From positions 1-64,000 of the forward strand of contig NZ_JADNJQ010000006.1 of assembly GCF_015555045.1 (NCBI RefSeq): a stretch of 64,000 bases of DNA. The letters run 5' to 3'. The DNA is from Collinsella aerofaciens (GTDB lineage Bacteria; Actinomycetota; Coriobacteriia; Coriobacteriales; Coriobacteriaceae). The notes beneath the pieces were generated by a model. The model was not told where the DNA came from. It made no database searches and worked only from the letters and a program-made list of their open reading frames with translations. The translations under genes were made by a program, and so were the position numbers. Of this stretch, positions 35,378 to 56,100 are shown piece by piece (within the stretch, counting starts at the first letter, position 1; every line of letters begins with the position of its first letter).

Positions 35378-36593
35378 GGGTATCGACCTCCTTCGTCGAG
35401 CCTCGGCCATACGCGCCCGCCATAGCGCCGCTGCAAGAAGCGCAGCCCCGTTCGTCGGGTTCGCCTTCGCCCGATGCGCCTTCCGCCCGAAGCGCGCGGC
35501 TGAACGCCATCGCAAGCCGGGCATTCTCCTTGCGCGTGCGCACCGCGACGCGGCACCAGAAACGGGACAGTACCGAAAACGAGTCGCACGTGCGGACCAA
35601 AACCCCCTGTTTATACAGGCGCTCGGGGATGTCTTTCGCCGGTGTGCGGACTAAAAGGAAGTTCGCATCCGACGGCACGACGGAAAGCCCGAGCGAGGAG
35701 AGCTCGTGGGAAAGCCACGCTCGCTCGCCCGCCAATACATCGCGCGTGCGCGAGACGTATTCGACGTCTTCCAGGGCGGCGATACCCGCGGCCTCGGCGA
35801 CCGAGGAGACGGGCCACGCCTGCCCCGCCCGGCGAATCCCCTCGAGGAGTTGGGCGTTTCCGCTGATCAGATATCCCAACCGCAACCCCGCCATTCCGTA
35901 GAGCTTGGTGAACGCGGAGAGCACGGCCACATGGCGCGAACACGCGGCGCGTGCGGCCACGCTCCTTTCGCGGGCGTCGGGCGCAAATCCGAGGAAGCAC
36001 TCGTCCACGACGAGCAGCGCGCCCGCCTGCTCGCAGCGGCATGCCACGGCATCGATCACGCGGGGGTCGACGAGGCGCCCCGTCGGGTTGTTCGGATTGC
36101 AGAGGTACGCCACGTCTCCCGGCCCCTCGATCGCGCGGGCGAAGGAGGCAGGCACGTCGAAGTCGTCCGCTTCGGAGAGCGGGAACTCCTGCACGCATGC
36201 GCCGTAGTAAGATGCCGCCTCCGCATATTCAGAGAACGTCGGCGCGCACACGACGATGCGTTTCGGGCGCACCGCCGCAGCGAGCCGCCAGATGATGTCG
36301 GACGCGCCCGCGCCGCAGACGATAGTATCTTCGGGAATGCCCTGGGCGCGCGCTAGGGCGCGAACGAGGGCGAGGCTTTCCCTATCGGGGTAGGCGTCGA
36401 TTCGAGAAAGCGACTTGCAAGCTGCGGCGACGGCGCGCGGCGAGGGGCCTGCCGGATTCACGTTCACCGAGAAGTCGATGAGATCGGAGGCGCCCCCTTC
36501 GCAACCGATGCCGAGCGATTGCGCGCTGCCCCCATGCGTACGGGCGCGCAGGATTCCCCCGGCAGCCCGGAGCGCGGCGTGGTCTTCCCTCAT
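35370..36593 (-). CDS. cobD: L-threonine-O-3-phosphate decarboxylase
   Basis: A 407-residue PLP enzyme giving the aminopropanol phosphate linker of the nucleotide loop. HisC/CobD features: DFSVNVNPAGPSP near residue 40, YLCNPNNPTGRLV, VVDECFLGF and PLP lysine in FTKLYGMAGLRLGY. The C terminus carries a ~35-residue Cys/Gly-rich extension. ATG 36593 overlaps the cbiB stop. Confidence 0.9.
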   Translation of the reverse strand: MREDHAALRAAGGILRARTHGGSAQSLGIGCEGGASDLIDFSVNVNPAGPSPRAVAAACKSLSRIDAYPDRESLALVRALARAQGIPEDTIVCGAGASDIIWRLAAAVRPKRIVVCAPTFSEYAEAASYYGACVQEFPLSEADDFDVPASFARAIEGPGDVAYLCNPNNPTGRLVDPRVIDAVACRCEQAGALLVVDECFLGFAPDARERSVAARAACSRHVAVLSAFTKLYGMAGLRLGYLISGNAQLLEGIRRAGQAWPVSSVAEAAGIAALEDVEYVSRTRDVLAGERAWLSHELSSLGLSVVPSDANFLLVRTPAKDIPERLYKQGVLVRTCDSFSVLSRFWCRVAVRTRKENARLAMAFSRALRAEGASGEGEPDERGCASCSGAMAGAYGRGSTKEVDTRG

Positions 36594-37564
36594 GCCATCG
36601 CCCCCAAGGCGAGCACGACCGCCGCGCGCGCGGCGCCGAAGACGACGAGCGCGCATACGGACGCGGCGAGCATGAGCCTAGTCGCCCGGGCGATGTCGCC
36701 CCACTCGATTTCGCGGGACGCGTCGCCTATCGTCGGTTTCTCAACGAGCTTGCCGAAATACACCGCGGGTCCTGCCAGGCGCAGCCCGAGCGCGCCCGCA
36801 CACGCTGACTCGGTCTGCGCCGAGTTGGGGCTCGCATGGCGACGCCTGTCGCGGCGCCAGATGCGCGCCGCCCCGCGCGCGTCGAGCCCGACGATCGGGC
36901 ACACGGCGATCATGAACAGGGCCGATAAGCGCGAGGGAATCCAGTTAACCGCATCGTCGAGGCGCGCCGAGGCGCGACCGAAGTCGATGTAGCGCTCGTT
37001 TTTGTAGCCCACCATGCTGTCGAGCGTGTTCACCGCCTTGTACGCCATGCCCAAGGGCGCACCCCCGATCATAAGGTAGAAAAGTGGCGCAATGACGCCG
37101 TCGCTCGCGTTCTCCGCCACCGTTTCCACGGCGGCGCGCGCGACGCCCTGCTCGTCGAGAACAGACGTGTCGCGTCCCACGATGAGCCCGACGGCTTCGC
37201 GCGCCGCGACAAGGCCGCCCTTCGAGAACGCGTGGGCCACGGCCAGGCTCTGGCGGCGCAGCTCGCATGTCGCGAGAACCTGATAGCTCGCCCATGCCTC
37301 GGCCACGAAGCGCAAGCCGGAGTGAACCATGCCGCAAAGATGTAGGATACCCCAGGTCAAAAGCCCACACGCAAGCGGAAGCGCCACGGCGAGCACAAGC
37401 CCTGCGGCACGCGTGCCCGCGGACGTTTGCGGGAATGCGCCTCGAAGGCGGCCTTCGGCCCACGTGATCGCGCGCCCCATGGCGACGACGGGATGGGGAA
37501 GCCAGCGCGGGTCGCCGAAGGCAAGGTCGGCCGCGAACCCGGCGGCGACGGCAAGAATCGTCAT
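36590..37564 (-). CDS. cbiB: Adenosylcobinamide-phosphate synthase
   Basis: A 324-residue integral membrane protein joining aminopropanol phosphate to adenosylcobyric acid. It starts with the family motif AGFAADLAFGDPRWLPHPVVAMG; DTSVLDEQGVARAAVETVAENASDGVIAPLFY and VNTLDSMVGYKNERY follow (longer segments condensed here as landmarks), with several hydrophobic helices. The start overlaps the preceding stop by one base (TGATG). Confidence 0.93.
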   Translation of the reverse strand: MTILAVAAGFAADLAFGDPRWLPHPVVAMGRAITWAEGRLRGAFPQTSAGTRAAGLVLAVALPLACGLLTWGILHLCGMVHSGLRFVAEAWASYQVLATCELRRQSLAVAHAFSKGGLVAAREAVGLIVGRDTSVLDEQGVARAAVETVAENASDGVIAPLFYLMIGGAPLGMAYKAVNTLDSMVGYKNERYIDFGRASARLDDAVNWIPSRLSALFMIAVCPIVGLDARGAARIWRRDRRRHASPNSAQTESACAGALGLRLAGPAVYFGKLVEKPTIGDASREIEWGDIARATRLMLAASVCALVVFGAARAAVVLALGAMA

Positions 37565-38565
37565 CACCGGGCATCGCCCCCCGAAGCGGGGCGAACGTCG
37601 CGAAGGCAGCGCCCATCCCAGGTGGCGGCCCATGCGCCGCCCGGCTCGGTATGCACGTCGAAATATCCCATTTTCGGGACAGCTAGCTCGGAGAGTAGCG
37701 CTTTCACGGTACCCGCGTGAACGACGAAGACGGCGCGCCCACTCCCCTGGGCGCGCTCCGATTCGCACGCCTCCCGAAACGCCGCGACGACGCGGCGGGT
37801 GAAATCGCTCTTGCCCTCGCCATGCGGGCAGCGCGTCTCGCACCAGGAGTCTACCCAGGCGCGGTAACGCACATCCTCTTTAAGCTCGGCAGCGCTTCGC
37901 CCCTCGAAGTCACCGAAATCCATCTCGCGCAGACCGGGGCACGCCATAAGCTCCGCGTTCGGGAAGAGGATGCGAGCCGTCTGGTCGGTGCGGGCCATGC
38001 CGCTCGTGATAACACGGAACACGTCACGATCGCACGCGAGGTCGCGCAAAGCGCGCTCGCCCGCACTCGACAGGGGCTCGTCGGTGCCCGCCCCGCTGTA
38101 GCGATGGTCTTCCGTGCCCGCCGTGGCACCATGGCGCACGAAGACGACTTCCAAAGGCGCGCCCGCGCCCTGCGTCCCTCGAGGCGCATCGGCAAGGTTT
38201 CCTTTGATGACCTGGGGAATCCCGCACGTCATGCGCACGACGACGTCGGCGCGCGCAGCGAGCGCGCATCCCAGGCGCCCCGCGCGCTCGCGCCATTGGG
38301 CGTCTTCCGCACGCATGGGGACGACCCCCGAGCCGACCAAGGGCAGAATCACTGCGTCGAAGCCGATCAGCCGCTCGAGCGCCCGGTCAGCGTCGAGCGC
38401 GCGTACGAGTTCCTCAGCACGGTACGCGACACGGCCGGCAAAAGCCGCGGGCACGCCGCCCTCCGCAAGCTGCGCCGCGTCGACGAAATCGTCCGCCGCG
38501 AACCCGAGCCTTTCGCGCACGAAGGTCCTCTTCCCCGAATGCGCGCCACCTACCACGAGAATCAT
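37564..38565 (-). CDS. CobU-like kinase domain fused to CobC-type histidine phosphatase
   Basis: A 333-residue fusion. Residues ~1-140 resemble a shortened CobU: P-loop VVGGAHSGKRTF and a late VVVRMTCGIPQVIKG that parallels the end of the real CobU (VVCGIPVWMKG). The CobU His-containing middle region is not evident. Residues ~150-333 are a phosphoglycerate-mutase-like phosphatase with VFVRHGATAGT (phospho-His), ITSGMARTDQTA and FVVHAGTVKALL, fitting alpha-ribazole phosphatase. A complete cobU lies two genes upstream, so the N-terminal domain is a paralogue whose activity is uncertain. Confidence 0.82.
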   Translation of the reverse strand: MILVVGGAHSGKRTFVRERLGFAADDFVDAAQLAEGGVPAAFAGRVAYRAEELVRALDADRALERLIGFDAVILPLVGSGVVPMRAEDAQWRERAGRLGCALAARADVVVRMTCGIPQVIKGNLADAPRGTQGAGAPLEVVFVRHGATAGTEDHRYSGAGTDEPLSSAGERALRDLACDRDVFRVITSGMARTDQTARILFPNAELMACPGLREMDFGDFEGRSAAELKEDVRYRAWVDSWCETRCPHGEGKSDFTRRVVAAFREACESERAQGSGRAVFVVHAGTVKALLSELAVPKMGYFDVHTEPGGAWAATWDGRCLRDVRPASGGDAR

Positions 38566-39329
38566 AGGAGCATGCCCCCCGCCACCAGCATGGCAAGCAT
38601 CGCGAGCTCGGCCCATTGCAGAAACCATCCGGCCAAATCACCCGTCACCCCGCCGAAGCGGGACAGGGCAACATGGCGGTACCACGCGAGCGCCAAAAGC
38701 CCCGCCACCGCCATAAGGGCGCCGACGGCCTGAGCGCACGCGACCATCCCTGCAGCCGAAGCCGCAGCGAAAGCGCAAAGCGGCACGACGATCGCCGCGC
38801 GCTTCTTCGCAGGCGAGAGCCCCACGGCCATGCCGTCCGCCCGCGCGGCAGGCCAGCATTCTACGGCGAGCCCCGAAAGCGCGCGGGAGAACACGAGCGA
38901 GCACAGAAGCGCGAGGAACGCCCCCGCCGTAAGCGGCAGCGCGGTGAACAGGGAAAACTGCAGAATAAGGTACACGACAACACCGATGACCCCGAAGGCG
39001 CCCGCCCGCGGGTCGTGCATAATCTCGAGCTTTCGCTCGCGCGGGGCCCAACTTGCAAGCGCATCGGAGGTGTCGCAGAGCCCGTCTAGGTGGATGCCTC
39101 CCGTCACCGCCACAGGCAACGCCACGAGCACGGCCGCGACGATGGTCGCGGACACGCCGAGCAGGTTCGCCACGTGCCCCCACGCCGTCATGAGGAAGCC
39201 TTCCGCAAGGCCCACCAGGGGAAACGCGGCAAGCGCATGGGTTGACCCGAAATCGGTCCAGGCCGATTTCGGGACGGGGATGCGCGAGAACGTTCCGAAC
39301 GCCGCGCCGATTGCCTCTGCTATCTTCAC
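38562..39329 (-). CDS. cobS: Adenosylcobinamide-GDP ribazoletransferase (cobalamin synthase)
   Basis: A 255-residue multi-helix membrane enzyme joining alpha-ribazole to adenosylcobinamide-GDP. It opens with GAAFGTFSRIPVPK and has the catalytic Asp cluster in GGIHLDGLCDTSDAL, plus RAGAFGVIG. GTG 39329 overlaps the cobU stop as GTGA. Confidence 0.94.
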   Translation of the reverse strand: MKIAEAIGAAFGTFSRIPVPKSAWTDFGSTHALAAFPLVGLAEGFLMTAWGHVANLLGVSATIVAAVLVALPVAVTGGIHLDGLCDTSDALASWAPRERKLEIMHDPRAGAFGVIGVVVYLILQFSLFTALPLTAGAFLALLCSLVFSRALSGLAVECWPAARADGMAVGLSPAKKRAAIVVPLCAFAAASAAGMVACAQAVGALMAVAGLLALAWYRHVALSRFGGVTGDLAGWFLQWAELAMLAMLVAGGMLL

Positions 39330-39874
39330 CTTGTAGGTCCTTCGCCTTTCATCCACACGGGAATCCCGCATACCACTTCGACTGCGCGGTCGGCCAGCGC
39401 CGCCACGCCCGCGTTCACGCGCGCGAGCGCGCGCCTCCATGCCTCGGTCCCCTCATCGTAGCGCATCCCATCGGCGAACACGTCGACGGTGACCACCACC
39501 GTATACGCAGCGGCCTGAGCGAGCCGTTCGATGCCTCCGAGCACCTCGCGCGCCGCAGCGTCGGGGTCACGTGGGGACAAGCCGCCTTCCGCGAAGAGCT
39601 CGTTCGCAACCAGGTTGCCCACGTCCTCCAAAAGAAGCGTGCAGCCGCACGGAAGCCCGGACGCTGCGGCGCCCACGTCACGCGTGCGCTCGAGGGTGGA
39701 AAACCCCTTGCCCTCGCGCAGCGCCCGATGGCGCGCGATGCGGCGGGCGCCCTCTTCCCCGAAGGGCTCCATCGTTGCCAGGTACACGCGGGGGCCGTCG
39801 TGCCCGAGGCACAGGGACTCGGCATAGGCGCTCTTGCCGCTCGCGGCGGCGCCGATGACGAGTGTCACCGTCAT
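39326..39874 (-). CDS. cobU: Adenosylcobinamide kinase / guanylyltransferase
   Basis: A 182-residue bifunctional enzyme that phosphorylates adenosylcobinamide and attaches GMP. P-loop LVIGAAASGKSAYAE, the RIARHRALREGKGFSTLE segment with the guanylylated His, and the C-terminal VEVVCGIPVWMKG are present. ATG 39874 overlaps the cobT stop (ATGA). Confidence 0.94.
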   Translation of the reverse strand: MTVTLVIGAAASGKSAYAESLCLGHDGPRVYLATMEPFGEEGARRIARHRALREGKGFSTLERTRDVGAAASGLPCGCTLLLEDVGNLVANELFAEGGLSPRDPDAAAREVLGGIERLAQAAAYTVVVTVDVFADGMRYDEGTEAWRRALARVNAGVAALADRAVEVVCGIPVWMKGEGPTR

Positions 39875-41013
39875 TTCCCAGCCTCGAAATGCTCGTAAGC
39901 AGCCATGCCAGTCGCCGTGAACGTCTTCCCATCCCGGTACACGCGCAGCGCCGAATCCAGAAGGGGCAGATACGCCATGGCGCCCGCGCCCTCGCCCAAG
40001 TGCATGCCTGCGACGAGGGGTGCCTTTATGCCGAGCTCGCGAAGGAGCTCCTGGCTTGCGGGTTCGCTTGATGCGTGGGTGCCCACGAGGTAGCCCAAGG
40101 CGTTGGGGCACAGGCGCGCCGCGCACAGGGCCGCCGTGCAGGATATGACCCCGTCGAGGAGCGCCGGCGCCTTCGAGGCCGCGGCCCCCAGGTAGAAGCC
40201 GCACATCGCCGCGATGTCGAAGCCGCCCACCTTCGAGAGCACGTCGATCGGGTCGGCGGGATCGGGCGAGTTCGCGTCGATAGCGCGCTCGACCACGTCG
40301 CGCTTGCGCGCGAGCGAGGCGTCCGAGAGCCCCGCGCCGCGCCCGACGAGGCTCCGCGCGTCCGCCCGGATGAGCACTGCGGCCACCGCCGCCGAGGTGG
40401 TCGTGTTGCCGATGCCCATCTCGCCCGCGGCGAGAAGGCGCACGCCGGCGCGGGCAAGCCCGCACGCGACGGCGATTCCGACCTCGATCGCGCGCACGGC
40501 CCCATCGCGAGACATAGCGGAGCCGTGCGCGATGTTGCCGCTCCCCCGCCGCACGTTCGCGCGCACCATGCGCGCGTCTTCTATGCCCCGGGCCATACCC
40601 ACGTCGACGGGCACGACCTCGGCACCCGCGAACGCCGCCATGCGGCAGGCGCTCGTGGCCCCCTCGCACATGTTGCGCGCGACGGCTCGCGTCACGTCTT
40701 GCCCGCTTTGCGACACGCCTTCGGCAACGACCCCGTTGTCGGAGAAGAATACCGCGAGCGCACGGGGAAACTCGGCCACCTCGGCGCTCCCCTGAGCTGC
40801 GGCGATACACGCGACGGCGTCTTCAAAGTCGCCCAATCCCCCCAAGGGGTGCGCGATGGAGTCCCACGCGGCGTACGCGGCGGCGCGGGCGCACTCGTCT
40901 GCGGGCGCGATCCGGGAGAGCGCGGCTTCGAGCACGGCACCCGGCGCCGACGAGAACGCGCGCTCGACTTCCTCGCGGATGCAGGCAAGCGCAGTTTCGG
41001 TTGCTTCAGCCAT
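39871..41013 (-). CDS. cobT: Nicotinate-nucleotide:dimethylbenzimidazole phosphoribosyltransferase
   Basis: A 380-residue CobT that activates the lower-ligand base. Family motifs: VFFSDNGVVAEGVSQ, AAGEMGIGNTTTSAAVAA and the catalytic Glu in HLGEGAGAMAYLP. No dimethylbenzimidazole synthesis gene (bluB or bza) is in the window, so the base may come from elsewhere. ATG 41013 follows AGAGGAGA and overlaps cbiA by eight bases. Confidence 0.95.
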   Translation of the reverse strand: MAEATETALACIREEVERAFSSAPGAVLEAALSRIAPADECARAAAYAAWDSIAHPLGGLGDFEDAVACIAAAQGSAEVAEFPRALAVFFSDNGVVAEGVSQSGQDVTRAVARNMCEGATSACRMAAFAGAEVVPVDVGMARGIEDARMVRANVRRGSGNIAHGSAMSRDGAVRAIEVGIAVACGLARAGVRLLAAGEMGIGNTTTSAAVAAVLIRADARSLVGRGAGLSDASLARKRDVVERAIDANSPDPADPIDVLSKVGGFDIAAMCGFYLGAAASKAPALLDGVISCTAALCAARLCPNALGYLVGTHASSEPASQELLRELGIKAPLVAGMHLGEGAGAMAYLPLLDSALRVYRDGKTFTATGMAAYEHFEAGK

Positions 41014-42388
41014 GCCGTCTCCTCTCTGCGAACGACGCTGCGGCAGACGCGAACGCGCGCACAACGTCGGGGTTCGTAGGATAGTACACATGCGGGAAGC
41101 CCGCCACCAGGGACGGGGTGGTCGCCATGCACGGCCAGCCCTTGTCGCGCCGAGGCTTCTGCGCCCAGAAGTCGCCGCCCGGGCAGGTGGACTGCCAGTA
41201 GTGGAACTCGTGCGCGCGGATGCGTGTGCCGCGCGGCCCGTAGAGACCGTCACGTTGGGAAGCGAGCTCCACGTACCCGAAACGGGACAGCCTTCCCCCG
41301 TTCTCGCTTGCGCCCTCAAGGGCGCCCGCAACAGGCCAGCGCCGCCCCTCGTTATCGGCGATTTCGCGCTGCAGGTACAGAAACCCACCGCATTCGGCGA
41401 CCGTCGGCATGCCGGATTCCACCGCGCGACGCACCGCCTCGCGCATCGGCGCGTTCTCGGAGAGCTGCCGCGCATGGAGCTCCGGGTAGCCGCCTCCCAG
41501 ATAGAGGGCGCTTGTCCCCCGGGGCAACTCGCTATCACACAGGGGGCTGAAAAAGACCAGCTCGCAACCCAGGTCCTCGAGTGCGCGCAGGTTCTCCTCG
41601 TAGTAGAACGAGAACGCCTCGTCACGCGCGACGGCGACGATGGGCCGCGCTCCCGCGATCGGCTCCAACCGGTATGGTTCCTCGCGGATATCGGGTGCCG
41701 TCGCCGCTATTTCGAGCAAGCGGTCGACGTCGACGCTCTTTTCCACCAGCTCGGCCATCTTGTCGATGCGCGCGGAGAGCTGCTTGACCTCGTCGGCGGT
41801 CACAAGCCCCAGATGCCGGCTTTCGAGCGAGAACGCCTCGTCGGCGGGGATATTACCCAAAACCGCGACGCCCGTGTGCTTCTCGATCGCAGGCGTCGCG
41901 TAGGCGCAGGCAGCGTCGCTCGTCTTGTTCAGCACGACGCCGCGCACGTTCGCACAAGGCAGGAACTCGGCGATGCCGCGGATTACGGCGGCGAGCGATA
42001 AAGACGCCCCGCGCCCGTTCACCACTAAAACGACCGGCGTTTCCGTGTCGCGCGCAACCTGGTAGCTGCTCGCGTCGGCCACGCCGGGCGCCATGCCGTC
42101 GTAGAGGCCCATGACCCCCTCGAGCACCGCGACATCCGCGCCCGCGGCGCCGCGTGCGAGCAGGGCGCGCAGCGTCGGGGCGTCGGTGAAGAAGCCGTCT
42201 AAGTTGCCCGAGCGCGCACCCACGACGCGGCGATGAAAGAGCGGGTCAATGTAGTCGGGGCCGCATTTGAAGGCCGCGCATGCAAGGCCGCGGCGCGCGA
42301 GCGCGCGCAAGAGCGCGCACGTAACGACCGTCTTGCCGCTCCCGCTCGAGGGCGCAGCGACCATGAAGCGCGGGATGGTCGTGCTCAC
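41006..42388 (-). CDS. cbiA: Cobyrinate a,c-diamide synthase
   Basis: A 460-residue CbiA/CobB. The ATP-binding N terminus has VAAPSSGSGKTVV and FKCGPDYIDPLFH; the glutaminase half has LYLGGGYPELHARQL and the Cys in VAECGGFLYLQ. It amidates side chains a and c of cobyrinate. GTG 42388 overlaps the cbiET stop. Confidence 0.96.
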   Translation of the reverse strand: MSTTIPRFMVAAPSSGSGKTVVTCALLRALARRGLACAAFKCGPDYIDPLFHRRVVGARSGNLDGFFTDAPTLRALLARGAAGADVAVLEGVMGLYDGMAPGVADASSYQVARDTETPVVLVVNGRGASLSLAAVIRGIAEFLPCANVRGVVLNKTSDAACAYATPAIEKHTGVAVLGNIPADEAFSLESRHLGLVTADEVKQLSARIDKMAELVEKSVDVDRLLEIAATAPDIREEPYRLEPIAGARPIVAVARDEAFSFYYEENLRALEDLGCELVFFSPLCDSELPRGTSALYLGGGYPELHARQLSENAPMREAVRRAVESGMPTVAECGGFLYLQREIADNEGRRWPVAGALEGASENGGRLSRFGYVELASQRDGLYGPRGTRIRAHEFHYWQSTCPGGDFWAQKPRRDKGWPCMATTPSLVAGFPHVYYPTNPDVVRAFASAAASFAERRRHG

Positions 42389-43632
42389 CGGACGCCGCCT
42401 TCCCCACCTGCACCACGCGCACTGACGAGGAACACGGGGTTTTGCGCCTTCATAAGATGGTGCGAGCCTACAGCCTCGGCGCGGGCGGCCGACACCTGGC
42501 ACGCCTCGAACCCCTTAAAGCGCGAACCTGAGAGGAGCGCGCACGCCTCGGTGAGCGTCTCAACGGTGACGCATGGCACGCACAGGCGAACCTGCGAGTT
42601 CTTCTCGAGCGCCGCCTCCAAGATAGAGGGAAGCTCGCCCGCGCTCCCGCCGACGAACACGGCGTCGGGGACGGGCAGTTTCGCGAGCGCTTCGGGGGCG
42701 ACACCGGGAACCGGATGCACGTTGCCGCACCCGAATGCATCCGCGTTCTCTCGAATGAGCCGCACGCCGGCTGCGTTGCGCTCAACCGCCCATACCGACC
42801 CCGCTCGCGCGACGAGCGCCGCCTCGATCGACACGCTCCCCGTGCCGGCGCCGACGTCCCACACGGTGTCGGTCGCGGTAAGGCGCAGCTTCGCGAGCGC
42901 GACGGCGCGCACCTCCTGCTTGGTCATGGGAACGTCGCCGCGGATAAAGAGCTCGTCGGGAATGCCCGAGGAAGCGTACGGCCAGCGGGAGCTCGCGGCG
43001 CCGCCTGCGAACTCGATAAGCATAACGTTCAAGTCGTCGAACGTCTGACCTGCAATTTCACTTGCGGTCGCGCAGGTGATGCGCTCGTCGGGGTACGACA
43101 GGCGCTCGGCCACCGTCACGCGCGCGTCCCCGAAGCCCGCCTGCACAAGCACGCCCGAAAGCCGCGAGGGGTCTTCCCCGCCCGACGTGACGAGGAAGAG
43201 CTCACCTGCGCGCTCGGCCTCGGCCACGATGTCGCACGCCACGCCGTGAGCGCTCACGAAGCGCCAATCCTGCCATGGACGCGCGAGGCGCGCGGCGAGA
43301 TACGACGCTGAGCTTATACCGGGAATGACGCACACGTCCACCTGCGCGTCGCCGGAGAGCGTCTCCACCAGGCGGCGCGCGCCGCTGAACAGCCCCACAT
43401 CGCCCGTCATCACGACCACGGCGCGCAGCCACGACGCCGCATCGGTGAGCGCGGCGACGATGTCCGCCGTCTTCACGAGCTCGCATCTCACCACGCCGGG
43501 CGGCACGTCGATGCCGACAAGCGCGCGATGAGCGCCGATGACCACGTCGGCGATGTCGATCGCGTCGAGCGCCGCGCGCGAGAGCAAGTCGGGGTTTCCG
43601 GGCCCCGCCCCGATGATCGTTACCTTTCGCAT
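42385..43632 (-). CDS. cbiET: Fused CbiE-CbiT C5,C15-methyltransferase/decarboxylase
   Basis: A 415-residue fusion as in CobL. The CbiE half (~1-205) begins VTIIGAGPGNPDLLSRAA and has MTGDVGLFSGARRL and VIPGISSASYLAARL; the CbiT half (~215-415) has WDVGAGTGSVSIEAAL for SAM binding and VFVGGSAGELPSILEA. Together they methylate C5 and C15 and decarboxylate the ring C acetate. Overlaps cbiH by 13 bases. Confidence 0.95.
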   Translation of the reverse strand: MRKVTIIGAGPGNPDLLSRAALDAIDIADVVIGAHRALVGIDVPPGVVRCELVKTADIVAALTDAASWLRAVVVMTGDVGLFSGARRLVETLSGDAQVDVCVIPGISSASYLAARLARPWQDWRFVSAHGVACDIVAEAERAGELFLVTSGGEDPSRLSGVLVQAGFGDARVTVAERLSYPDERITCATASEIAGQTFDDLNVMLIEFAGGAASSRWPYASSGIPDELFIRGDVPMTKQEVRAVALAKLRLTATDTVWDVGAGTGSVSIEAALVARAGSVWAVERNAAGVRLIRENADAFGCGNVHPVPGVAPEALAKLPVPDAVFVGGSAGELPSILEAALEKNSQVRLCVPCVTVETLTEACALLSGSRFKGFEACQVSAARAEAVGSHHLMKAQNPVFLVSARGAGGEGGVR

Positions 43633-44363
43633 GGAATCTCCCGATACCCGCGCGGCGTGACCATACGGCCGCCTACGAGCTTCGTGTCCGCGTTGCCGAC
43701 GAACACGGTGGTGAACATGTCGGCGTCGATCTCCCCCAGCTCGGAGAGCCTGCACATGCCCGACTGCTGCCCCTCGCGCCCGATGTTGCGTACCCAGCCG
43801 CAGAGCGTGTCGGGGGCCTTCCATTCGAGCATAATCTTCGCCGCGCGTGAGAGCCTGTCGGCGCGCTTTCTGCTGCGCGGGTTGTACAAACAGATGCAGA
43901 AGTCGGCGCTCGCCACGGCGGCGAGCCTGCGCTCGATGACCTCCCATGGCGTGAGTAGGTCGGAGAGCGACACGACCGCGAAGTCGTGGGCAAGCGGGGC
44001 GCCGAGCACCGCCGACCCGCTCTGAGCCGCGGTGGCCCCGGCGATAACTTCCACGTCTACATCGGGGTAGTCCTCCGCAAGCTCCAGCACAGGGCTCGCC
44101 ATGCCGTACACGCCCGCGTCACCGCTGCACACGAGCGCCACGGCTTCTCCGCTCTGCGCGCGCGAAAGCGCCAGGCGGCATCGTTCGACCTCGTGCATCA
44201 TCGGCGTCGCGAGATGCGCCGCGTCGGGCACGGCGGCGAGCGCGAGCTCCACGTATTTCGTGTACCCAACAACGATGTCGGCCGCCTCGAGCGCGCGCCG
44301 AGCCGCAATCGTCATGCCGTCGGGGCCGCCCGGGCCGATCCCCACCACGAAGAGCTTTCCCAT
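43620..44363 (-). CDS. cbiH: (Cobalt-)precorrin-3B C17-methyltransferase
   Basis: A 247-residue SAM-dependent methyltransferase that contracts the ring and methylates C17. It has VVGIGPGGPDGMT, SGDAGVYGMASPVLE and VIAGATAAQSGSAVLGAPL, plus CLYNPRSRKRADRL typical of CbiH/CobJ. ATG 44363 is preferred over GTG 44366 because AAGGAG then has a 5-base spacing. Confidence 0.94.
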   Translation of the reverse strand: MGKLFVVGIGPGGPDGMTIAARRALEAADIVVGYTKYVELALAAVPDAAHLATPMMHEVERCRLALSRAQSGEAVALVCSGDAGVYGMASPVLELAEDYPDVDVEVIAGATAAQSGSAVLGAPLAHDFAVVSLSDLLTPWEVIERRLAAVASADFCICLYNPRSRKRADRLSRAAKIMLEWKAPDTLCGWVRNIGREGQQSGMCRLSELGEIDADMFTTVFVGNADTKLVGGRMVTPRGYREIPCER

Positions 44364-45496
44364 CACCGCTCCTTAAACGAAAGTTCGATAGATACTTTGG
44401 AAAACGCGACGGTCACGCCGCCGTGAGCGAGCTTCGGGAAGATAAGTTTGCCCCCGCCCGCGAGCGCCGCGCGCTCGCACACATTGTCGACCCCCACCGT
44501 CGCGCGTACGAAATCAGATGGCGAAACGCTGCCTTCGACCTGCGACAACTCCTCTGCGGAATACGTCGCAAGCGGGATATTGCGCGCGCGGCAGAAGGCG
44601 AGCAGACCCTCCTCGTGCGCCTTCACGTCGATCGTCGCCGCCTCGCGCACGGCCAAAGGCGAGATGCCCGCCTGCCCGCACGCGAGAAGAAACGCCTCCC
44701 CGATCGCTTCGGCGCACGCACCGCGACGGCACCCTATGCCCGCAACGATACAGGGCACGACAAGGCGAAGCGGCTCGGGCGCAGGCGCCTGCACCCGCAT
44801 GCCCGCCGGCATCCCCGTCTCACCGGCGGGCACGACCTCGTCCGTTGTCTCCGCCGCGCGAACGAACGCGCCTGCATTCGCGCCAGCGAACGGCGACACG
44901 ACGATATCGGCCCGAGCGCGGTCGGACGCAATGTCTACCCCCTCAGGCGGCTGTCCCGAAATCGGCATGTCGGAATAGAGTGCCACGCGCCCGCCCGAAA
45001 GCAGCCGCGCCGACACTCGCTTGATGGCCTCGGGATTCGAAACGGCGAGCCCCGCACAGCGCGCCCACGTATCCACCGCCCACACGCCGCGGACGTCGGT
45101 CGCCGTGGTGATGACGGGGATGGCCCCTACCGCGCGGGCCACAGTTTGCGCAAGCTCGTTCGCACCGCCCAAATGCCCCGACAAAAGCGGGACGGCAAAG
45201 CGCCCCGCCTCGTCAATCACCACAACCGCGGAATCGGTTGCCTTCGAAGCGACATGCGGCGCGATCGCCCGCACGGCGATGCCCGCCGCGCCCACGAACA
45301 GAAGCGCGTCCGACGCTTCCCACGCGAGCGCCGTCCATGCGCGCAGGTCGGCCTTCCCCTCGCCGAACCCGCGCGAAACGGAAACGTCCCAGCCAGGGTC
45401 ATCTTCACCTGTCTGCGCGCAATCGGAAAGCGCGCGTGCGGTGCGCTCCGCCAACGCATACCCCCTCTCAGTGAACGCTATGCAGGAAATCCTCAT
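44363..45496 (-). CDS. cbiG: Cobalt-precorrin-5A hydrolase
   Basis: A 377-residue CbiG, which opens the delta-lactone and releases acetaldehyde, a step specific to the anaerobic pathway. LLSGHLGGANELAQ marks the N-terminal domain and AGIGCRRGACAEAI the C-terminal domain. It starts in direct contact with the stop of the truncated cbiL. Confidence 0.93.
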   Translation of the reverse strand: MRISCIAFTERGYALAERTARALSDCAQTGEDDPGWDVSVSRGFGEGKADLRAWTALAWEASDALLFVGAAGIAVRAIAPHVASKATDSAVVVIDEAGRFAVPLLSGHLGGANELAQTVARAVGAIPVITTATDVRGVWAVDTWARCAGLAVSNPEAIKRVSARLLSGGRVALYSDMPISGQPPEGVDIASDRARADIVVSPFAGANAGAFVRAAETTDEVVPAGETGMPAGMRVQAPAPEPLRLVVPCIVAGIGCRRGACAEAIGEAFLLACGQAGISPLAVREAATIDVKAHEEGLLAFCRARNIPLATYSAEELSQVEGSVSPSDFVRATVGVDNVCERAALAGGGKLIFPKLAHGGVTVAFSKVSIELSFKER

Positions 45497-45730
45497 CTAG
45501 CGCACCACCATCGTCGAGAAGTAGCTGCCCCGATCGGGCACATCGTCAAGCGAGCGGTACACGCGCTCGCCCGGAAGCCCACAGTCCTCTACGAGCTCGG
45601 CACCGTCAAAGGCGCCCTCCTCGCGAAGAATGCGCTTCGTGTCCGCAAGCGAGCGGCGCGCCTTCATGACCACCTTCGTCCCCGGCCAGCCGATTGCGCG
45701 GCCCACCTCGTACAGCACGCCTTTACTCAT
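45497..45730 (-). pseudogene. cbiL: cbiL with in-frame internal deletion
   Basis: Precorrin-2/cobalt-factor II C20-methyltransferase is normally ~230-240 residues. Here only 77 codons remain. The first ten (MSKGVLYEVG) match the family N terminus, which normally continues VGPGDPEL; instead the frame jumps to RAIGWPGTKVVMKARRS and runs through YFSTMVVR, the family C terminus. The SAM-binding centre (~150 residues) is gone while the frame, start and stop stay intact. It overlaps cbiD by eight bases and abuts cbiG, so translation coupling is preserved. No activity is expected. Confidence 0.8.
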
Positions 45731-46907
45731 ACGTCGCCCCCAATACCCCGATAACTGCATCGGCGCCCGACGTGCGGAAAAGCTCGCGGCGCTCGGCGTC
45801 GAACACGACCGCGGCGATGTCGCATGCGCCCGCCGCGCGGCGGCGCAACCTGTCCTCGATTGCCGCAGCGAGCGAGGCGCACGCAGCGTCCCCCACGCCG
45901 GCGGCCTCGATTACCTCGAGTGCCGCCGTGGTCGTGACGGACGTCATGATCTCGCGCACGGTCTTCGCGCCCGCGCCGGCCATGGCCGCGTGGGCGGCCA
46001 GAATCTCCGCGCGGCAGTCGGCGGTACGCGAATGGGTGTCCATGATACCGCCCGCGACCTTCACCAACTTGCCGATGTGTCCCACAAGAAGGACATTGGT
46101 AAATCCCTCGCGAATGCAGCAATCAATCGCATCGCCCACGAAGTTGGAGATGAAGACCACCGGCGCACCGTTTAGGTGGAAATGCCCTGAGATGAACTGC
46201 GCGCCGTAGTTGCCGGGCGTGAGCACGACTCCGCACCGCCCCATAGCCGCATGCTGCCGGATCTCGAGCTCGATACTGTCGCGCAAGGCAGCGAGGCTGC
46301 GCGGCTCGACGATGCCCGTCGTGCCCAGGATGGAGATGCCGTCCTTTATCCCCAGGTGCGGGTTGAAGGTCTTTTCGGCAAGGGCAACACCCTCGGGTAC
46401 CGAAATTGTCACAGCAATATCTCCAGAAAAGCCGTGCGCGGCGCACACCTCGCGCACCGCCGAAGTGATCATCGCGCGCGGCGTCGCGTTGATGGCGGCC
46501 GCCCCCACCGGCTGCTCGAGCCCGGGCAACGTCACGCGCCCCACGCCCACGCCGCCGTCGACGGAAACTTCCGATTCGTGCGCGGGTACGTCCTTGCTGC
46601 CCGCGGCGCCCGTGCCCGACCCCGCATGTTCCACGCGCGCGTACACGAGCACGCCGTCGGTCACATCGGCATCGTCGCCTGCGTCCTTTCGCACGGCACA
46701 CTGGGCGCACCCCTCGCCGATGCATGCGTCGACCACGTTCGCCTCGACGGGCAGCCCGCCGGGGGTGACGATCGACACGAGGCCGACGGGCTTTCGTGAC
46801 AAGAGCATCTCGCAGGCCGCCTTCGCCGCGAGCGCGGCGCAGCTCCCCGTGGTGTAGCCGCAGCGCAGGCGGGTCGTCCCGGTATATATGTAGTGCTCGA
46901 AGGCCAC
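45723..46907 (-). CDS. cbiD: Cobalt-precorrin-5B C1-methyltransferase
   Basis: A 394-residue CbiD, methylating C1 in the anaerobic route. The family N terminus RCGYTTGSCAALAAKAA is present, then VSIVTPGGLP, LGIKDGISILGTTGIVEP and NFVGDAIDCCIREGF. GTG 46907 starts one base after the cbiF stop. Confidence 0.94.
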   Translation of the reverse strand: MAFEHYIYTGTTRLRCGYTTGSCAALAAKAACEMLLSRKPVGLVSIVTPGGLPVEANVVDACIGEGCAQCAVRKDAGDDADVTDGVLVYARVEHAGSGTGAAGSKDVPAHESEVSVDGGVGVGRVTLPGLEQPVGAAAINATPRAMITSAVREVCAAHGFSGDIAVTISVPEGVALAEKTFNPHLGIKDGISILGTTGIVEPRSLAALRDSIELEIRQHAAMGRCGVVLTPGNYGAQFISGHFHLNGAPVVFISNFVGDAIDCCIREGFTNVLLVGHIGKLVKVAGGIMDTHSRTADCRAEILAAHAAMAGAGAKTVREIMTSVTTTAALEVIEAAGVGDAACASLAAAIEDRLRRRAAGACDIAAVVFDAERRELFRTSGADAVIGVLGATYE

Positions 46908-46908
46908 G

Positions 46909-47700
46909 CTAGCTGCTCGCCTTCCGATACCCCGTGGAAAACGAAGGGTCGTAAAGCTTGCTGCGCTCGTACGACTCCGCTTGCGCGCCGTTGTGTGCAA
47001 GCCTGCCGCGAGCTCCGAGCACGCGGCCCACCACCACGAGCGCCGTGCGGTCGATGCCCTCTCGCGCGCCCGCATCGGCGAGCGTGCCCACTGTGCATCG
47101 CACCACGCGCTCCTCAGGCCAGGTCGCCTTGTACACGAGCGCCGCCGGCTCATCGGAGCTGCGGCCCGCGGCCAAAAGCTCGGCGGAAAGCTCGGCGAGC
47201 ATACCCGAGCTCAGGAAGATGACCATAGTCGAGCCGCTTTCCGCCATGGTGCGCATGCCCTCGCCCGCGGGCATGGGGGTGCGCCCGGAAAGCCGCGTGA
47301 TCACGACCGACTGGCTGATTCCCGGCAGCGTATATTCCTGGCGAAGCGCCGCCGCGGCACCGCAAAAGCTCGACACGCCGGGCACCACCTCGTAGTCCAC
47401 GCCGCGCGCGTCGAGCGCGTCCATCTGCTCCTGGATGGCGCCGTACAGGCACGGGTCGCCCGTGTGCAGGCGCACCACTTCCTCGCCCCGCGCATCTGCC
47501 GCGCACATCACGTCGAGCACTTCCTCCAAGGTCATGTGCGCGCTGTCGTAGACGATGCAGGATTCCTTGCACTCGGCGAGCAGCTCGGGGTTCACAAGGC
47601 TCCCCGCCCAAACGACCACGTCGGCCGCGCGCAAAAGGCGCGCCCCGCGCAGCGTGATAAGGTCGGCGGCGCCCGAGCCAGCGCCAACGATATGAATCAT
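46909..47700 (-). CDS. cbiF: Cobalt-precorrin-4 C11-methyltransferase
   Basis: A 263-residue SAM-dependent methyltransferase and the first gene of the cobalamin operon. Motifs: HIVGAGSGAADLITLRG, VWAGSLVNPELL, RLHTGDPCLYGAIQEQ and VVPGVSSFCGAAAAL, all typical of CbiF/CobM. AGGGAAGG precedes ATG 47700. A ~150-base leader lies upstream on this strand; I see no riboswitch there. Confidence 0.95.
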   Translation of the reverse strand: MIHIVGAGSGAADLITLRGARLLRAADVVVWAGSLVNPELLAECKESCIVYDSAHMTLEEVLDVMCAADARGEEVVRLHTGDPCLYGAIQEQMDALDARGVDYEVVPGVSSFCGAAAALRQEYTLPGISQSVVITRLSGRTPMPAGEGMRTMAESGSTMVIFLSSGMLAELSAELLAAGRSSDEPAALVYKATWPEERVVRCTVGTLADAGAREGIDRTALVVVGRVLGARGRLAHNGAQAESYERSKLYDPSFSTGYRKASS

Positions 47701-47831
47701 CCGAGCCTTCCCTTCCCGTTTCTCATCGCAACCGTTTACGCTGCCATTCGCGCAGCGGCCAAAACACGGCGCCCGCAGCGGCAATCGGCGCAAATACGCA
47801 GGCAGGAGGCGCAATGCCGCCCGCCCTGGCT

Positions 47832-48158: not shown

Positions 48159-49085
48159 ATGTCCGACCAGATGTCACGCCGCGGCTTCATGGGCGCCGCA
48201 GCAACCGGAGCCTTCGCGCTCGCCGGAGTCGCGCTCGCGGGCTGCTCCAGCACCTCCGCGAGTTCCGAGAAATCGAGCGAAAAGGAGAAGGCCGTGAAGC
48301 CGGTCATCCTCGTCACGAGCTTCGGCACGAGCTACAACGACTCGCGCCACATCACCATCGGCGCCATCGAAGACGCTATCCGCGAGAAGTACTGGCAGGA
48401 CTACGACATCCGCCGCGCCTTCACCGCGCAGATCATCATCGACAAGCTGAAGAAGCGCGACGGCATCACGATCGACAACATGACCGAGGCGCTCGACCGC
48501 TGCGTGGAAGACGGCGTGAAGGAAATCGTCGTGCAGCCGACGCATCTCATGGCTGGCCTGGAATACGCCGACGTGAAAGACGAGCTCGACAAGTACGCCG
48601 ACAAGTTCGACAAGATCTCGCTCGGCGACCCGCTGCTCACCTCCGACGACGACTACAAGAAGGTGGCCGCCGCCATTAAGGAGAACATGGCGTCCTTCGA
48701 CGACGGCAAGACGGCGCTGTGCCTCATGGGCCACGGCACCGAAGCCGATTCCAACACCGACTATGCCAAGATGCAGGAAGTGTTCAAGAACGAGGGCTTG
48801 ACGCAGTTCTTCGTCGGCACCGTCGAGGCTGAACCGACCTGCGAGGATGTTATCGCCGCCGCGAGCGCCGCAGGGTACAAGAAGGCCGTGCTCGCGCCGT
48901 TCATGGTGGTCGCGGGCGACCACGCGAACAACGACATGGCAGACGAGACCGACCCCGACAGCTGGGCTGCGAAGTTCGTGGCCGCCGGCTTCGAAGTGAC
49001 GTGCCTGCTCCAGGGTCTGGGACAGAACGCCGCGGTCGACGACATCTACGTCTCACACGTGGACGACGCCATCGCCAAGCTGTAA
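48159..49085 (+). CDS. cbiK: Exported CbiK-like cobaltochelatase, Tat lipoprotein
   Basis: A 308-residue protein. The first ~32 residues form a Tat-style signal with lipobox (MSRRGFMG, then GVALAGC), so it should be folded inside, exported and lipid-anchored at Cys. The remainder is the CbiK sirohydrochlorin cobaltochelatase fold, with VILVTSFGTSYNDSR, the metal-site His in VQPTHLMAGLEY and the second His in LMGHGTEADSN. Secreted CbiK is known in Desulfovibrio, where it may handle metal or heme outside the cytosol. Its place between a B12 riboswitch and an importer favours cobalt or corrinoid handling at the surface. Confidence 0.88.
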   Translation: MSDQMSRRGFMGAAATGAFALAGVALAGCSSTSASSEKSSEKEKAVKPVILVTSFGTSYNDSRHITIGAIEDAIREKYWQDYDIRRAFTAQIIIDKLKKRDGITIDNMTEALDRCVEDGVKEIVVQPTHLMAGLEYADVKDELDKYADKFDKISLGDPLLTSDDDYKKVAAAIKENMASFDDGKTALCLMGHGTEADSNTDYAKMQEVFKNEGLTQFFVGTVEAEPTCEDVIAAASAAGYKKAVLAPFMVVAGDHANNDMADETDPDSWAAKFVAAGFEVTCLLQGLGQNAAVDDIYVSHVDDAIAKL

Positions 49086-49768: not shown

Positions 49769-51340
49769 ATGCGGTCGATTCTTCCCAAGGGGGAAAGCAG
49801 GAAGCGTCGCAGCATCGCGGTGCGCGCGATCGCCTGCGTTCTCGTCGCCCTGCTCGCGCTTCCCTTCGCGGGGTGCAGTGCGAGCCCGAACGCGACCGGT
49901 GGCACGGCAGGCTCTCAGGAATACACTGTGAGCGTCTCGCTCTCCGGCGGGTCAGGGCGCGCAAGCATCGCCTCACCCACCACAATTGTGAAGGATGGCG
50001 ACACCTACACCGCGACCATCACCTGGTCGAGTTCGAACTACGACAAGATGACCGTCGACGGCGTAGACTACGCGCCCGTAAACGACGGCGGCAACTCCAC
50101 GTTCGAGATACCCGTCACGCTCGACGAGGACATCGCCGTGTCGGCCGAGACCGTCGCCATGTCGACGCCGCACACCATCGACTACACGCTCTACTTCGAC
50201 TCATCCACCATGAAGAAGAAAACGGGCGACGATGCAAGCGGCGACTCCCCTGCGGGAACGGCTTCAAGCGCCGCGGCCGACTTCCACAACGCCGATTTGG
50301 GCTGCGGCTGGGAGCCGACGGGGGCGCTTCAGCTTGAATACGCCAAGCACTTCACTGTCGACGAGTACGAAGGCGGCCTGCGGCTTATCTGCATTTCGAA
50401 CGGGGAGCGCTTCCTCGTGGTGCCGCAAAATGCAAAGGTACCTGATGGGTTGAGCTCCGACATCGCGGTCATAAGGCGCCCCGCCGACAAGGTGTACCTC
50501 GTGTCGTCGGCGACGATGTGCCTGGTCGACGCGCTCGATGCGAACGACAATATCCTCATGTCGGGCACGAAGGCCGACGATTGCTCGGTCGGGGGCTTCA
50601 AAAGCGCGCTCGAAAGTGGGGCGATCGCCTACGGCGGCAAGTACAGCGCGCCCGACTACGAGCGAATATCGGCCTCGGGCTGCACGCTCGCCATCGAGAA
50701 CACCATGATCAACCACACGCCCGATGTGAAGGAAAAGCTGCAGAAGCTCGGGCTCGTCGTGCTCACCGAACAGTCGTCGAGCGAGCCCGAAGCACTCGGG
50801 CGCGTCGAGTGGATTAAGCTTTTCGGCGTCCTGTTCGACAAGGAAGACGAGGCCGCGCACCTGTTCAACGAGCAGAAGGCCCGCGTCGAGCAAACGTCGA
50901 GGCTCGCGTCGTCAGGTAAAACCGTGGCGTATTTCTACATTAACTCGAACGGGGCCGCCGTCACGCGGCGGGCGGGCGACTACGTGGCGCAGATGATCGA
51001 GCTTGCAGGCGGCAGCTACGCGCTCGATGACGCGCAGACGGCGTCGACGTCAGGTTCGTCAGTAACGCTCGAAATGGAGCGCTTCTACGCGACGGCGAAG
51101 GATGCCGACATCATCGTCTACAACGGCACCATCGACGAATCGGTTGCCACCTTGAAAGACTTCGTAGGCAAAAACGCGCTATTGTCGCAGTTCAAAGCTG
51201 TAAAGAACGGCAACGTCTGGGTCACAAGCGCCGACATGTACCAGCAGATGACTTCTACCGCCGACATTATCGACGAGCTGCACGGGGCGTTCACCGGCGA
51301 TGACGCGAGCGACTTCCATTATCTGAGGAAGCTTGGCTAG
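49769..51340 (+). CDS. btuF: Substrate-binding lipoprotein of a BtuF/FecB-type importer with extra N-terminal domain
   Basis: A 523-residue lipoprotein (lipobox LPFAGC). Residues ~45-135 form an additional beta-rich domain (ASIASPTTIVKDGDTYTAT, TITWSSSNYDKMTVDG, FEIPVTLDED). After a linker the class III binding-protein fold follows, with SSDIAVIRRPADKVYLVSS, TIENTMINHTPDV-like and DIIVYNGTIDES segments. Corrinoid specificity is inferred from the riboswitch. The start is four bases after the previous stop, with no good ribosome site, so it is probably coupled. Confidence 0.82.
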   Translation: MRSILPKGESRKRRSIAVRAIACVLVALLALPFAGCSASPNATGGTAGSQEYTVSVSLSGGSGRASIASPTTIVKDGDTYTATITWSSSNYDKMTVDGVDYAPVNDGGNSTFEIPVTLDEDIAVSAETVAMSTPHTIDYTLYFDSSTMKKKTGDDASGDSPAGTASSAAADFHNADLGCGWEPTGALQLEYAKHFTVDEYEGGLRLICISNGERFLVVPQNAKVPDGLSSDIAVIRRPADKVYLVSSATMCLVDALDANDNILMSGTKADDCSVGGFKSALESGAIAYGGKYSAPDYERISASGCTLAIENTMINHTPDVKEKLQKLGLVVLTEQSSSEPEALGRVEWIKLFGVLFDKEDEAAHLFNEQKARVEQTSRLASSGKTVAYFYINSNGAAVTRRAGDYVAQMIELAGGSYALDDAQTASTSGSSVTLEMERFYATAKDADIIVYNGTIDESVATLKDFVGKNALLSQFKAVKNGNVWVTSADMYQQMTSTADIIDELHGAFTGDDASDFHYLRKLG

Positions 51341-51344
51341 CGTC

Positions 51345-52385
51345 ATGAGAAGCCGGCTTTCCATGACATACGACGAATCGGGGCGCGCCGCGCGGTGTCG
51401 CGTCGTGACGGCGCTGCTCGCTGTTGTCCTCATCGTGCTCGTCGGGGCCAACCTGTGCATCGGGAGCGTGCTCGTGCCCGCAGACCACATCCCCGGCATC
51501 CTTTCGGGCGGCGCGGCCAATTCCATGGAAAGCCAAGTCATCTGGGAGATTCGCCTGCCGCGCGTGCTTTCAGCCGTGCTTCTCGGCGGGGCACTTTCGC
51601 TCTCCGGGTTCCTGCTGCAGACGTTTTTCAACAACCCCATCGCCGACCCGTTCATCTTGGGCGTCTCCTCGGGCGCAAAGTTCGTCGTCGCGCTTACGAT
51701 GATCGTGCTTCTGGGCGCGAACCAGGCCATGTCCTCGCCGGCCATGGTGGCCGCAGCGTTTCTGGGATCGCTTATCACCATCGGCTTCGTGCTCCTCATC
51801 GCACGGCGCATAAGTTCCATGGCCATGCTTATCGTGGCGGGCGTCATGGTGGGATACATCTGCTCGGCGGCGACGAACTTCCTCATCGCCTTCGCCGACG
51901 ACCAGTCCATCGTGAACCTGCACAACTGGTCTTTGGGTAGCTTCTCGGGTTCGGGCTGGGACGACGTCGCGGTCATCACGGTCGTGGTGATCACCGTGAG
52001 CGCATGCGTATTCGCGATATCGAAGCCCCTTTCCGCCTTCCAGCTGGGAGAAGCCTACGCGAAAAGCGTCGGCGTGAACGTCGCACGCTTCCGCGTGGTG
52101 CTCGTCCTTCTAGCGAGCATGCTCTCCGCCTGCGTGACCGCGTTCGCTGGTCCGGTGTCGTTCGTAGGCATCGCGGTTCCGCATCTCGTTAAGTCGGCGC
52201 TGAAGTCGTCGAAGCCCATCCGAGTGATTCCTGCGTGCTTCTTGGGAGGCGCCATCTTCTGCGCGGGCTGCGATTTGATCGCGCGCACGCTGTTTTCCCC
52301 CGTCGAGCTTTCCATCAGCGCCGTCACCGCCATCTTCGGCGCGCCGGTGGTTATCGCACTCATGTTGAAGAAGCGGGTGAGGTAG
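51345..52385 (+). CDS. btuC: FecCD/BtuC-type ABC permease
   Basis: A 346-residue permease with about ten helices. FecCD-family landmarks: IRLPRVLSAVLLGGALSLSG, NNPIADPFILGVSSGA, WSLGSFSGSGWDD and FAGPVSFVGIAVPHLVK. ATG 51345 is used; TTG 51333 overlaps the btuF stop and stands too close to the ribosome site. The btuD gene follows immediately. Confidence 0.92.
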   Translation: MRSRLSMTYDESGRAARCRVVTALLAVVLIVLVGANLCIGSVLVPADHIPGILSGGAANSMESQVIWEIRLPRVLSAVLLGGALSLSGFLLQTFFNNPIADPFILGVSSGAKFVVALTMIVLLGANQAMSSPAMVAAAFLGSLITIGFVLLIARRISSMAMLIVAGVMVGYICSAATNFLIAFADDQSIVNLHNWSLGSFSGSGWDDVAVITVVVITVSACVFAISKPLSAFQLGEAYAKSVGVNVARFRVVLVLLASMLSACVTAFAGPVSFVGIAVPHLVKSALKSSKPIRVIPACFLGGAIFCAGCDLIARTLFSPVELSISAVTAIFGAPVVIALMLKKRVR

Positions 52386-53720
52386 ATGGGGAAATTCGTG
52401 CCGCAGCCCAAAACGCTCGGAGGGGACATTCCATGCTTAAACAGTCCTAAGCTCGCACGAAAGCGCCAGAAGGCACTTTCGACTCGCGCGGAACTGCGCG
52501 CGAAACGCCTCCTCCGAGCGGAGTCGAACCTCGAAACCCCGGTCGCAACGAAGGCTGACGGAGCGCCGCTTTTCCGCATAAGCGACCTGTCGGCGGGCTA
52601 CGACAAGAAGGTCGTAGTCGAAGGCGTCGAGCTAGAGGTTCGCGCGGGCGACGTCGTGGCGCTCATCGGGCCGAACGGCTCGGGCAAGTCGACCATCTTG
52701 AAAACCATCACACGCCATCTGGCACCGCTTGCCGGCGCGGTCGAGCTCGACGGGCGGGAGATTTCCCGATGGAAGACGGCGGAGTTCGCAAGGAACCTTG
52801 CCGTTATGCTGACAGATCGACCCCGGACCGAGCTCCTCACCTGCCGCGATATCGTAGAGGCGGGAAGGCATCCCTACACCGGGCGAATGGGCACACTCTC
52901 GCCCGACGACCATAGTCGGGTCGACGAGGCCATGAAAACCGCACATGTGGAAGAGTTCGCCGAGCGCGACTTCATGCAGATAAGCGACGGGCAACGCCAG
53001 CGCGTCATGCTCGCACGCGCCATCGCGCAGGATCCGCGTGTGCTCGTGCTCGACGAGCCCACGTCGTATCTCGATATCCGCTACCAGATCGACCTGCTGC
53101 GAATACTTCGCCACCTTGCGAAATCGCGGAATGTTGCTGTCATCATGTCCATCCACGAACTCGAGCTCGCGCAGAAAAGCGCCGACAAGGTGATTTGCGT
53201 GAAGGACGGCCGGGTCTTCCGCGCCGGCGCACCCGAGGACATATTCACGCGCGAGACGATTGGCGAGCTCTACGGCCTTAAACATGGCACCTTCAACGAG
53301 CGCTTCGGCAGCGTGGAAATTGGGCGCCCACACGGCGATGCGCACACGTTCGTCATCGCCGGCGCAGGTACGGGGTCAGCTGTGTTTCGCCAGCTAATCC
53401 GGCAGGGCAAGGCGTTCTACGCGGGCGTTCTGCACGAAGGGGACATCGACTGCGAGCTTGCGCGCGACCTGGCGACGGAATGCGTGGCCGAGCGCGCCTT
53501 CGAGCCGATCGGGGATAAAACCATAGCCCGCGCCAAAGAGCTCCTCGTCCACTGCGCGCGTCTTATCGTGTGCCCCGCCGCCTTCGGCACCATAAACGCC
53601 CGCAACGCAGAGCTCGTCGAGTTCGCACGCTCGCATGGTATCGAGGTCATGCGAGCGTGCGAAGGCGCATCGGAGGATTCCAAAATTGGAGTGGGAAGGA
53701 TAAACTGGACTTTCTTTTAA
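52386..53720 (+). CDS. btuD: BtuD-type ABC ATPase with C-terminal extension
   Basis: A 444-residue protein, far longer than the usual ~260. A polar ~55-residue N terminus precedes the ATPase with Walker A LIGPNGSGKST, a variant signature ISDGQRQRVMLARA (SDGQ instead of SGGQ), Walker B VLVLDEPTSYLDI and switch His in SIHELEL. Residues ~315-444 form a second domain (THTFVIAGAGTGSAVFRQL-like start, LIVCPAAFGTINARNAELV) of unknown role, possibly regulatory. The stop is followed in frame by an IS remnant. Confidence 0.85.
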   Translation: MGKFVPQPKTLGGDIPCLNSPKLARKRQKALSTRAELRAKRLLRAESNLETPVATKADGAPLFRISDLSAGYDKKVVVEGVELEVRAGDVVALIGPNGSGKSTILKTITRHLAPLAGAVELDGREISRWKTAEFARNLAVMLTDRPRTELLTCRDIVEAGRHPYTGRMGTLSPDDHSRVDEAMKTAHVEEFAERDFMQISDGQRQRVMLARAIAQDPRVLVLDEPTSYLDIRYQIDLLRILRHLAKSRNVAVIMSIHELELAQKSADKVICVKDGRVFRAGAPEDIFTRETIGELYGLKHGTFNERFGSVEIGRPHGDAHTFVIAGAGTGSAVFRQLIRQGKAFYAGVLHEGDIDCELARDLATECVAERAFEPIGDKTIARAKELLVHCARLIVCPAAFGTINARNAELVEFARSHGIEVMRACEGASEDSKIGVGRINWTFF

Positions 53721-56001: not shown

Positions 56002-56078
56002 TGGTAGCCCGTACCAGATTCGAACTGGTGATCTCCGCCTTGAGAGGGCGGCGTCCTAAACCGCTAGACGAACGGGCC
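56002..56078 (-). tRNA. tRNA-Glu (anticodon CTC)
   Basis: Full cloverleaf on the minus strand with encoded CCA. The anticodon stem-loop CCGCC-CTCTCAA-GGCGG gives CTC (reads GAG). Overall sequence is the classic bacterial tRNA-Glu pattern. Near-identical to the copy at 56101. Confidence 0.95.
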
Positions 56079-56100
56079 ATAAGCCTCAGCAGAAAAGAAG

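Follow-up and report, generated by a model that had tools for sequence, protein, structure and literature searches.

In-frame deletions of cbiL, at least three of them separate, in an otherwise intact anaerobic cobalamin locus shared among gut Coriobacteriia

In this study, we found that many Collinsella genomes and two related gut genera carry an anaerobic cobalamin (B12) locus in which cbiL, the gene for the C20-methyltransferase, has been shortened by in-frame deletion while the other genes are intact. This deletion is real, is old or recurrent, occurs in many genomes and affects one gene specifically. It suggests that these bacteria make or finish B12 without the supposedly essential CbiL step.

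Results

The cbiL remnant of Collinsella aerofaciens lies on the reverse strand at positions 45497 to 45730 of the window, that is, the whole 64,000-nucleotide stretch of DNA analysed here. It encodes a 77-residue product (MSKGVLYEVG...YFSTMVVR) in which codons 1-9 of a 229-codon gene are joined to codons 162-229, residues 10-161 being gone. Alignment to full-length relatives shows that exactly 456 bp (152 codons) are missing. This agrees with the first-pass annotation of this DNA, which had described a clean internal in-frame deletion removing about 150 residues with the SAM site. It had also described the CbiL N terminus MSKGVLYEVG as joined to the C terminus, and here the junction stands, but the true N terminus amounts to only nine codons, the tenth being the junction codon. 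The junction (45701 to 45707, reverse strand; 456 bp gone relative to full-length sister genes) falls at a short imperfect repeat, GTG[G/C]GC, with the copies GTGGGC and GTGCGC, and codon 10 differs among deletion carriers (GGC, CGC or CCC).

Remnant residues 10-77 match positions 161-229 of the cobI/cbiL model TIGR01467 (E 1e-10), but the score of 41.5 bits lies below the curated cut-off of 163.25 and the match is not full length, whereas the full 229-residue protein of sister Collinsella matches positions 2-229 with 187.5 bits. Common descent with CbiL is evident, since the remnant shares about 96% identity with the C-terminal part of the full CbiL that sister strains encode in this operon. 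The GxGxGD N-terminal loop and the GDPSIY and GVPSF SAM-binding loops, in contrast, all fall within deleted codons 10-161. Judged from its sequence, with both SAM-binding loops gone, the remnant cannot be an active methyltransferase. A sequence search of solved structures with the remnant as query gave no match, and we found no literature on deletion or loss of cbiL beside an intact operon.

The operon around the remnant is otherwise complete, as the first-pass annotation had also stated. Upstream on the reverse strand are cbiF (46909 to 47709) and cbiD (45723 to 46909, start approximate), and downstream are cbiG (44363 to 45496), cbiH (43620 to 44366, C17 methylase and ring contraction), a cbiE-cbiT fusion (42385 to 43632), cbiA (41006 to 42397), cobT, cobU, cobS and cobC (37564 to 40950), cbiB, cobD, cbiP and btuR (33366 to 37576), cbiC (32724 to 33365) and cbiJ (31996 to 32694). 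An absence of cbiJ is therefore rejected. The forward strand carries the divergent cbiK (48162 to 49085) and a corrinoid-type ABC transporter (binding protein, BtuC-like permease and BtuD-like ATPase; 49769 to 53720). Thus cbiK, F, D, G, H, E, T, A, J, C, P and B, cobD, T, U and S, and btuR are all open, as befits an anaerobic cobalamin operon. The neighbouring overlaps are likewise intact: the cbiD stop overlaps the cbiL start (ATGAGTAA), and the cbiG ATG directly follows the cbiL stop (TAGATG), so that cbiG is likely translationally coupled.

Several further features of the region were recorded. The signal- or lipobox-like N terminus of CbiK suggests insertion of cobalt (or another metal) outside the cytoplasm, beside the corrinoid-type transporter. 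The CbiE-CbiT linker (around 43000) and the end of cbiT (around 42412) show many in-frame length variants among strains, from 15 to 135 bp, and four strains lack 96 bp, in frame, close to the start of the BtuD-like gene (52522). No cobalamin riboswitch was found at the Rfam threshold in the window (1-64000), despite the full B12 locus. Two near-identical tRNA-Glu genes lie adjacent to each other at 56002-56177, just past the locus.

A comparison with sister strains, which the first-pass annotation had proposed, showed the same 77-codon cbiL in 14 of 45 Collinsella species-level genomes; four others have the full 229-residue gene in the same cluster, one has a diverged full-length gene, and 26 gave no match. 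The same locus is present in C. aerofaciens strains, Gordonibacter pamelaeae, Ellagibacter isourolithinifaciens, Senegalimassilia anaerobia and a Coriobacteriia MAG. The shared stretch (31920 to 53684, about 21.8 kb) is 97-98% identical at the nucleotide level in these Eggerthellaceae and the MAG, and homology breaks near both limits. The flanks differ between hosts, and transposase-like ORFs adjoin the locus in Gordonibacter. From the high identity combined with unrelated flanks, we infer that the B12 locus moved recently between bacterial families. A survey of 138 genomes from the family of Gordonibacter turned up no further short cbiL; the remaining CbiL proteins there have full length and about 40% identity.

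In Ellagibacter, cbiL lacks 285 bp, and in Senegalimassilia 315 bp, both in frame, with end points that differ from each other and from those of Collinsella. Therefore, at least three separate deletions have occurred in cbiL. All three types remove codons 51-142 and keep the last 68 codons. By our estimate, the chance that all three disruptions fall in one gene (about 3% of the coding length) is about 0.001, and the chance that all three are in frame is 1/27. A single clade of short forms was rejected on both local and whole-locus trees (AU p 0.014 and 0.019), so their history is blurred by recombination or recurrence; recombination with full-length copies, or repeated deletion at the GTG[G/C]GC repeat, may have brought older variation into the short forms.

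In 22 genomes with the locus, no gene other than cbiL is broken by a stop codon or frameshift, a count that leaves out N gaps in the Gordonibacter assembly, and all other coding indels are multiples of three. The apparent broken genes in Gordonibacter 7-10-1-b were rejected because they coincide with these gaps. Pairwise dN/dS is 0.10-0.37 for the other locus genes in 11 short-form genomes. In 14 short-form genomes, with distinct changes counted against the fourfold-site mutation spectrum, the nonsynonymous/synonymous ratio is 0.15-0.49 for every other gene and lowest for cbiC (0.15), cbiH (0.16) and cbiF (0.18). The divergence is star-like and young (about 2.4%), with synonymous divergence of about 0.06 per pair. 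The locus outside cbiL evolves under purifying selection, and the low ratios indicate continuing selection on the corrin steps that follow CbiL. The cbiK gene and the adjacent transporter genes are also constrained, which fits import and metal insertion but is not decisive.

The Collinsella genome carrying the window is 99.88% complete. No second CbiL was found elsewhere in it, the other matches to the CbiL model being cross-hits to CbiF, CbiH and CbiE. CobA makes precorrin-2. A fifth tetrapyrrole methylase considered as CobA was rejected, being RsmI (contig 24). As the genome encodes no tetrapyrrole methylase besides CbiF, CbiH, CbiE and RsmI, CobA is absent. The same count of methylases gave no CobA in five short-form genomes (this one included), in three Collinsella with full cbiL, or in Ellagibacter, Senegalimassilia and the Coriobacteriia MAG, where outside this genome the extra methylase was taken for RsmI from its size and score. 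HemC was not found in eight Collinsella, nor in Ellagibacter, Senegalimassilia or the MAG. It is present in Gordonibacter, whose cbiL is full and whose expected cobA/hemD position is an assembly gap. With the two upstream genes tested, HemC and CobA, both absent, as in tetrapyrrole-precursor salvagers, such hosts are probably salvagers of this kind. The genome also encodes a MetH-type protein with pterin-binding and cobalamin-binding parts, which gives the host a use for the cofactor. The first-pass annotation had anticipated neither the recurrence of the deletion, nor the transfer of the locus across families, nor the absence of the upstream steps (HemC and CobA).

Discussion

We consider the chances about even that CbiL catalysis has been repeatedly discarded in these bacteria, either because the precursor enters after C20 methylation or because the C20 step is skipped, with the remnant kept in frame through translational coupling. 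In the simplest scenario, the host would take an external tetrapyrrole into the corrin pathway, as it appears to lack the steps to uroporphyrinogen III and precorrin-2 (HemC and CobA being the genes tested). The imported precursor might already bear the C20 methyl, although we know of no import of a C20-methylated precursor. Alternatively, CbiH and the later enzymes may accept a ring without this methyl. The textbook sequence is methylation of C20 by CbiL, then ring contraction by CbiH, and then release of the C20 carbon as acetaldehyde by CbiG (PMC7242693). The C20 methyl is thus not part of the product, and because it departs with the C20 carbon when CbiG acts, an unmethylated ring may be accepted. 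A CbiL-independent anaerobic B12 route in gut Coriobacteriia, with either contraction of the unmethylated ring (releasing formaldehyde, not acetaldehyde) or import of a C20-methylated precursor, is a more tentative proposal, which we think would probably not hold.

Coupling would account for the form of the deletions. The cbiD, cbiL and cbiG genes overlap or abut, so translation of cbiG probably depends on ribosomes traversing the short ORF, and this would explain why the deletions are in frame and the 3' end is retained. The constraint on the remnant described below counts against a pure spacer, which would need none. There are also counterpoints to dispensability itself: CbiL is annotated in 99% of predicted producers (PMC6461909), and five Collinsella keep a full cbiL (four with this locus, one diverged). 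Furthermore, three full-cbiL Collinsella (G019, G020 and G033) also lack HemC and CobA, so upstream loss alone does not make CbiL useless.

The first-pass annotation had raised the possibility that the strain is losing B12 synthesis. In such early decay, the locus would be an acquired passenger whose substrate the hosts do not make, with cbiL as the first loss and the rest too young to have decayed. The absence of HemC and CobA from the hosts, the star-like, young divergence and the lack of the whole locus in some Collinsella are all consistent with this. However, it fits poorly with the lack of any other broken gene in 22 genomes and with the purifying selection seen in the 14 short-form genomes over the synonymous divergence accumulated, and three disruptions confined to a gene of about 3% of the coding length would hardly arise by chance. 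We therefore regard decay as unlikely.

That another gene supplies C20 methylation, also suggested at first, appears quite improbable. Either an unrelated methylase or one of CbiH, CbiF and CbiE acting promiscuously would have had to take over, and these three are indeed intact and constrained. Against this, the genome search gave no second CbiL, no extra tetrapyrrole methylase is present in five short-form genomes, and a scan for compensatory alleles fixed with the deletion gave a few sites in partial association but none that was a complete fixed difference.

It is slightly more doubtful still that the remnant is a working small protein, a C-terminal CbiL fragment with a new structural role such as aiding CbiH or CbiF. 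The remnant is constrained in the 14 short-form genomes (ratio 0.27, p 9e-5; 14 amino-acid changes observed against 32.7 expected as an absolute rate). Variants private to short forms (13 nonsynonymous to 22 synonymous) give about the same ratio, and the last 68 codons survive in all three deletion types. However, coupling to cbiG would preserve the frame and the 3' end anyway, and CbiL-conserved positions are not spared by the changes (4 of 14), which include K23M at a nearly invariant lysine. The variation may also predate the deletion, older variation having possibly been carried into short forms by recombination or repeated deletion, and we therefore do not claim a function for the peptide. 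The AlphaFold2 model of the remnant is compact (pLDDT 78, pTM 0.66), but its predicted fold resembles, and may simply mirror, part of the CbiL C domain; the sequence would lead one to expect such a fold, which demonstrates neither stability nor function. Finally, an assembly error or a deletion in a minority of a mixed culture, the remaining suggestion of the first-pass annotation, is very improbable, as 14 separately assembled genomes, some nearly closed, share the identical deletion and two other genera carry clean deletions of their own.

Whether or not the shortened pathway works, the finding has consequences. CbiL is used as a core marker for corrin synthesis and is annotated in nearly all predicted producers, yet a whole gut lineage has dropped it repeatedly while keeping the other genes. 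A pathway that still works would mean either that C20 methylation is not a strict requirement or that a new intermediate is cross-fed in the gut; if it fails, marker-based calls of C. aerofaciens as a B12 producer are wrong. The question is directly testable, since sister strains that have the deletion and those that lack it carry near-identical clusters.

Compared with cobalt-factor II C20-methyltransferase CbiL (TIGR01467; structures 2QBU, 2E0K and 8XJ3), the remnant shares the start, the last 68 residues with the family's C-terminal motifs KVVMK, CGLPGE and YFS, and the operon position, but lacks 152 residues with both SAM-binding loops. Like the tetrapyrrole-precursor salvagers of Shelton et al. 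2018 (PMC6461909), these hosts have the later corrin pathway and lack early tetrapyrrole steps. That category, however, is defined by a complete corrin pathway, whereas the short-form hosts have additionally lost the first corrin methylase, by repeated in-frame deletion. The same organism group has been annotated as a B12 producer or a precorrin-2 auxotroph (PMC4403557, PMC8123684), the latter being the description given for C. aerofaciens (PMC8123684). In contrast to these annotations, the majority of genomes carrying this locus are incapable of C20 methylation, and therefore precorrin-2 alone should not suffice for them by the textbook route.
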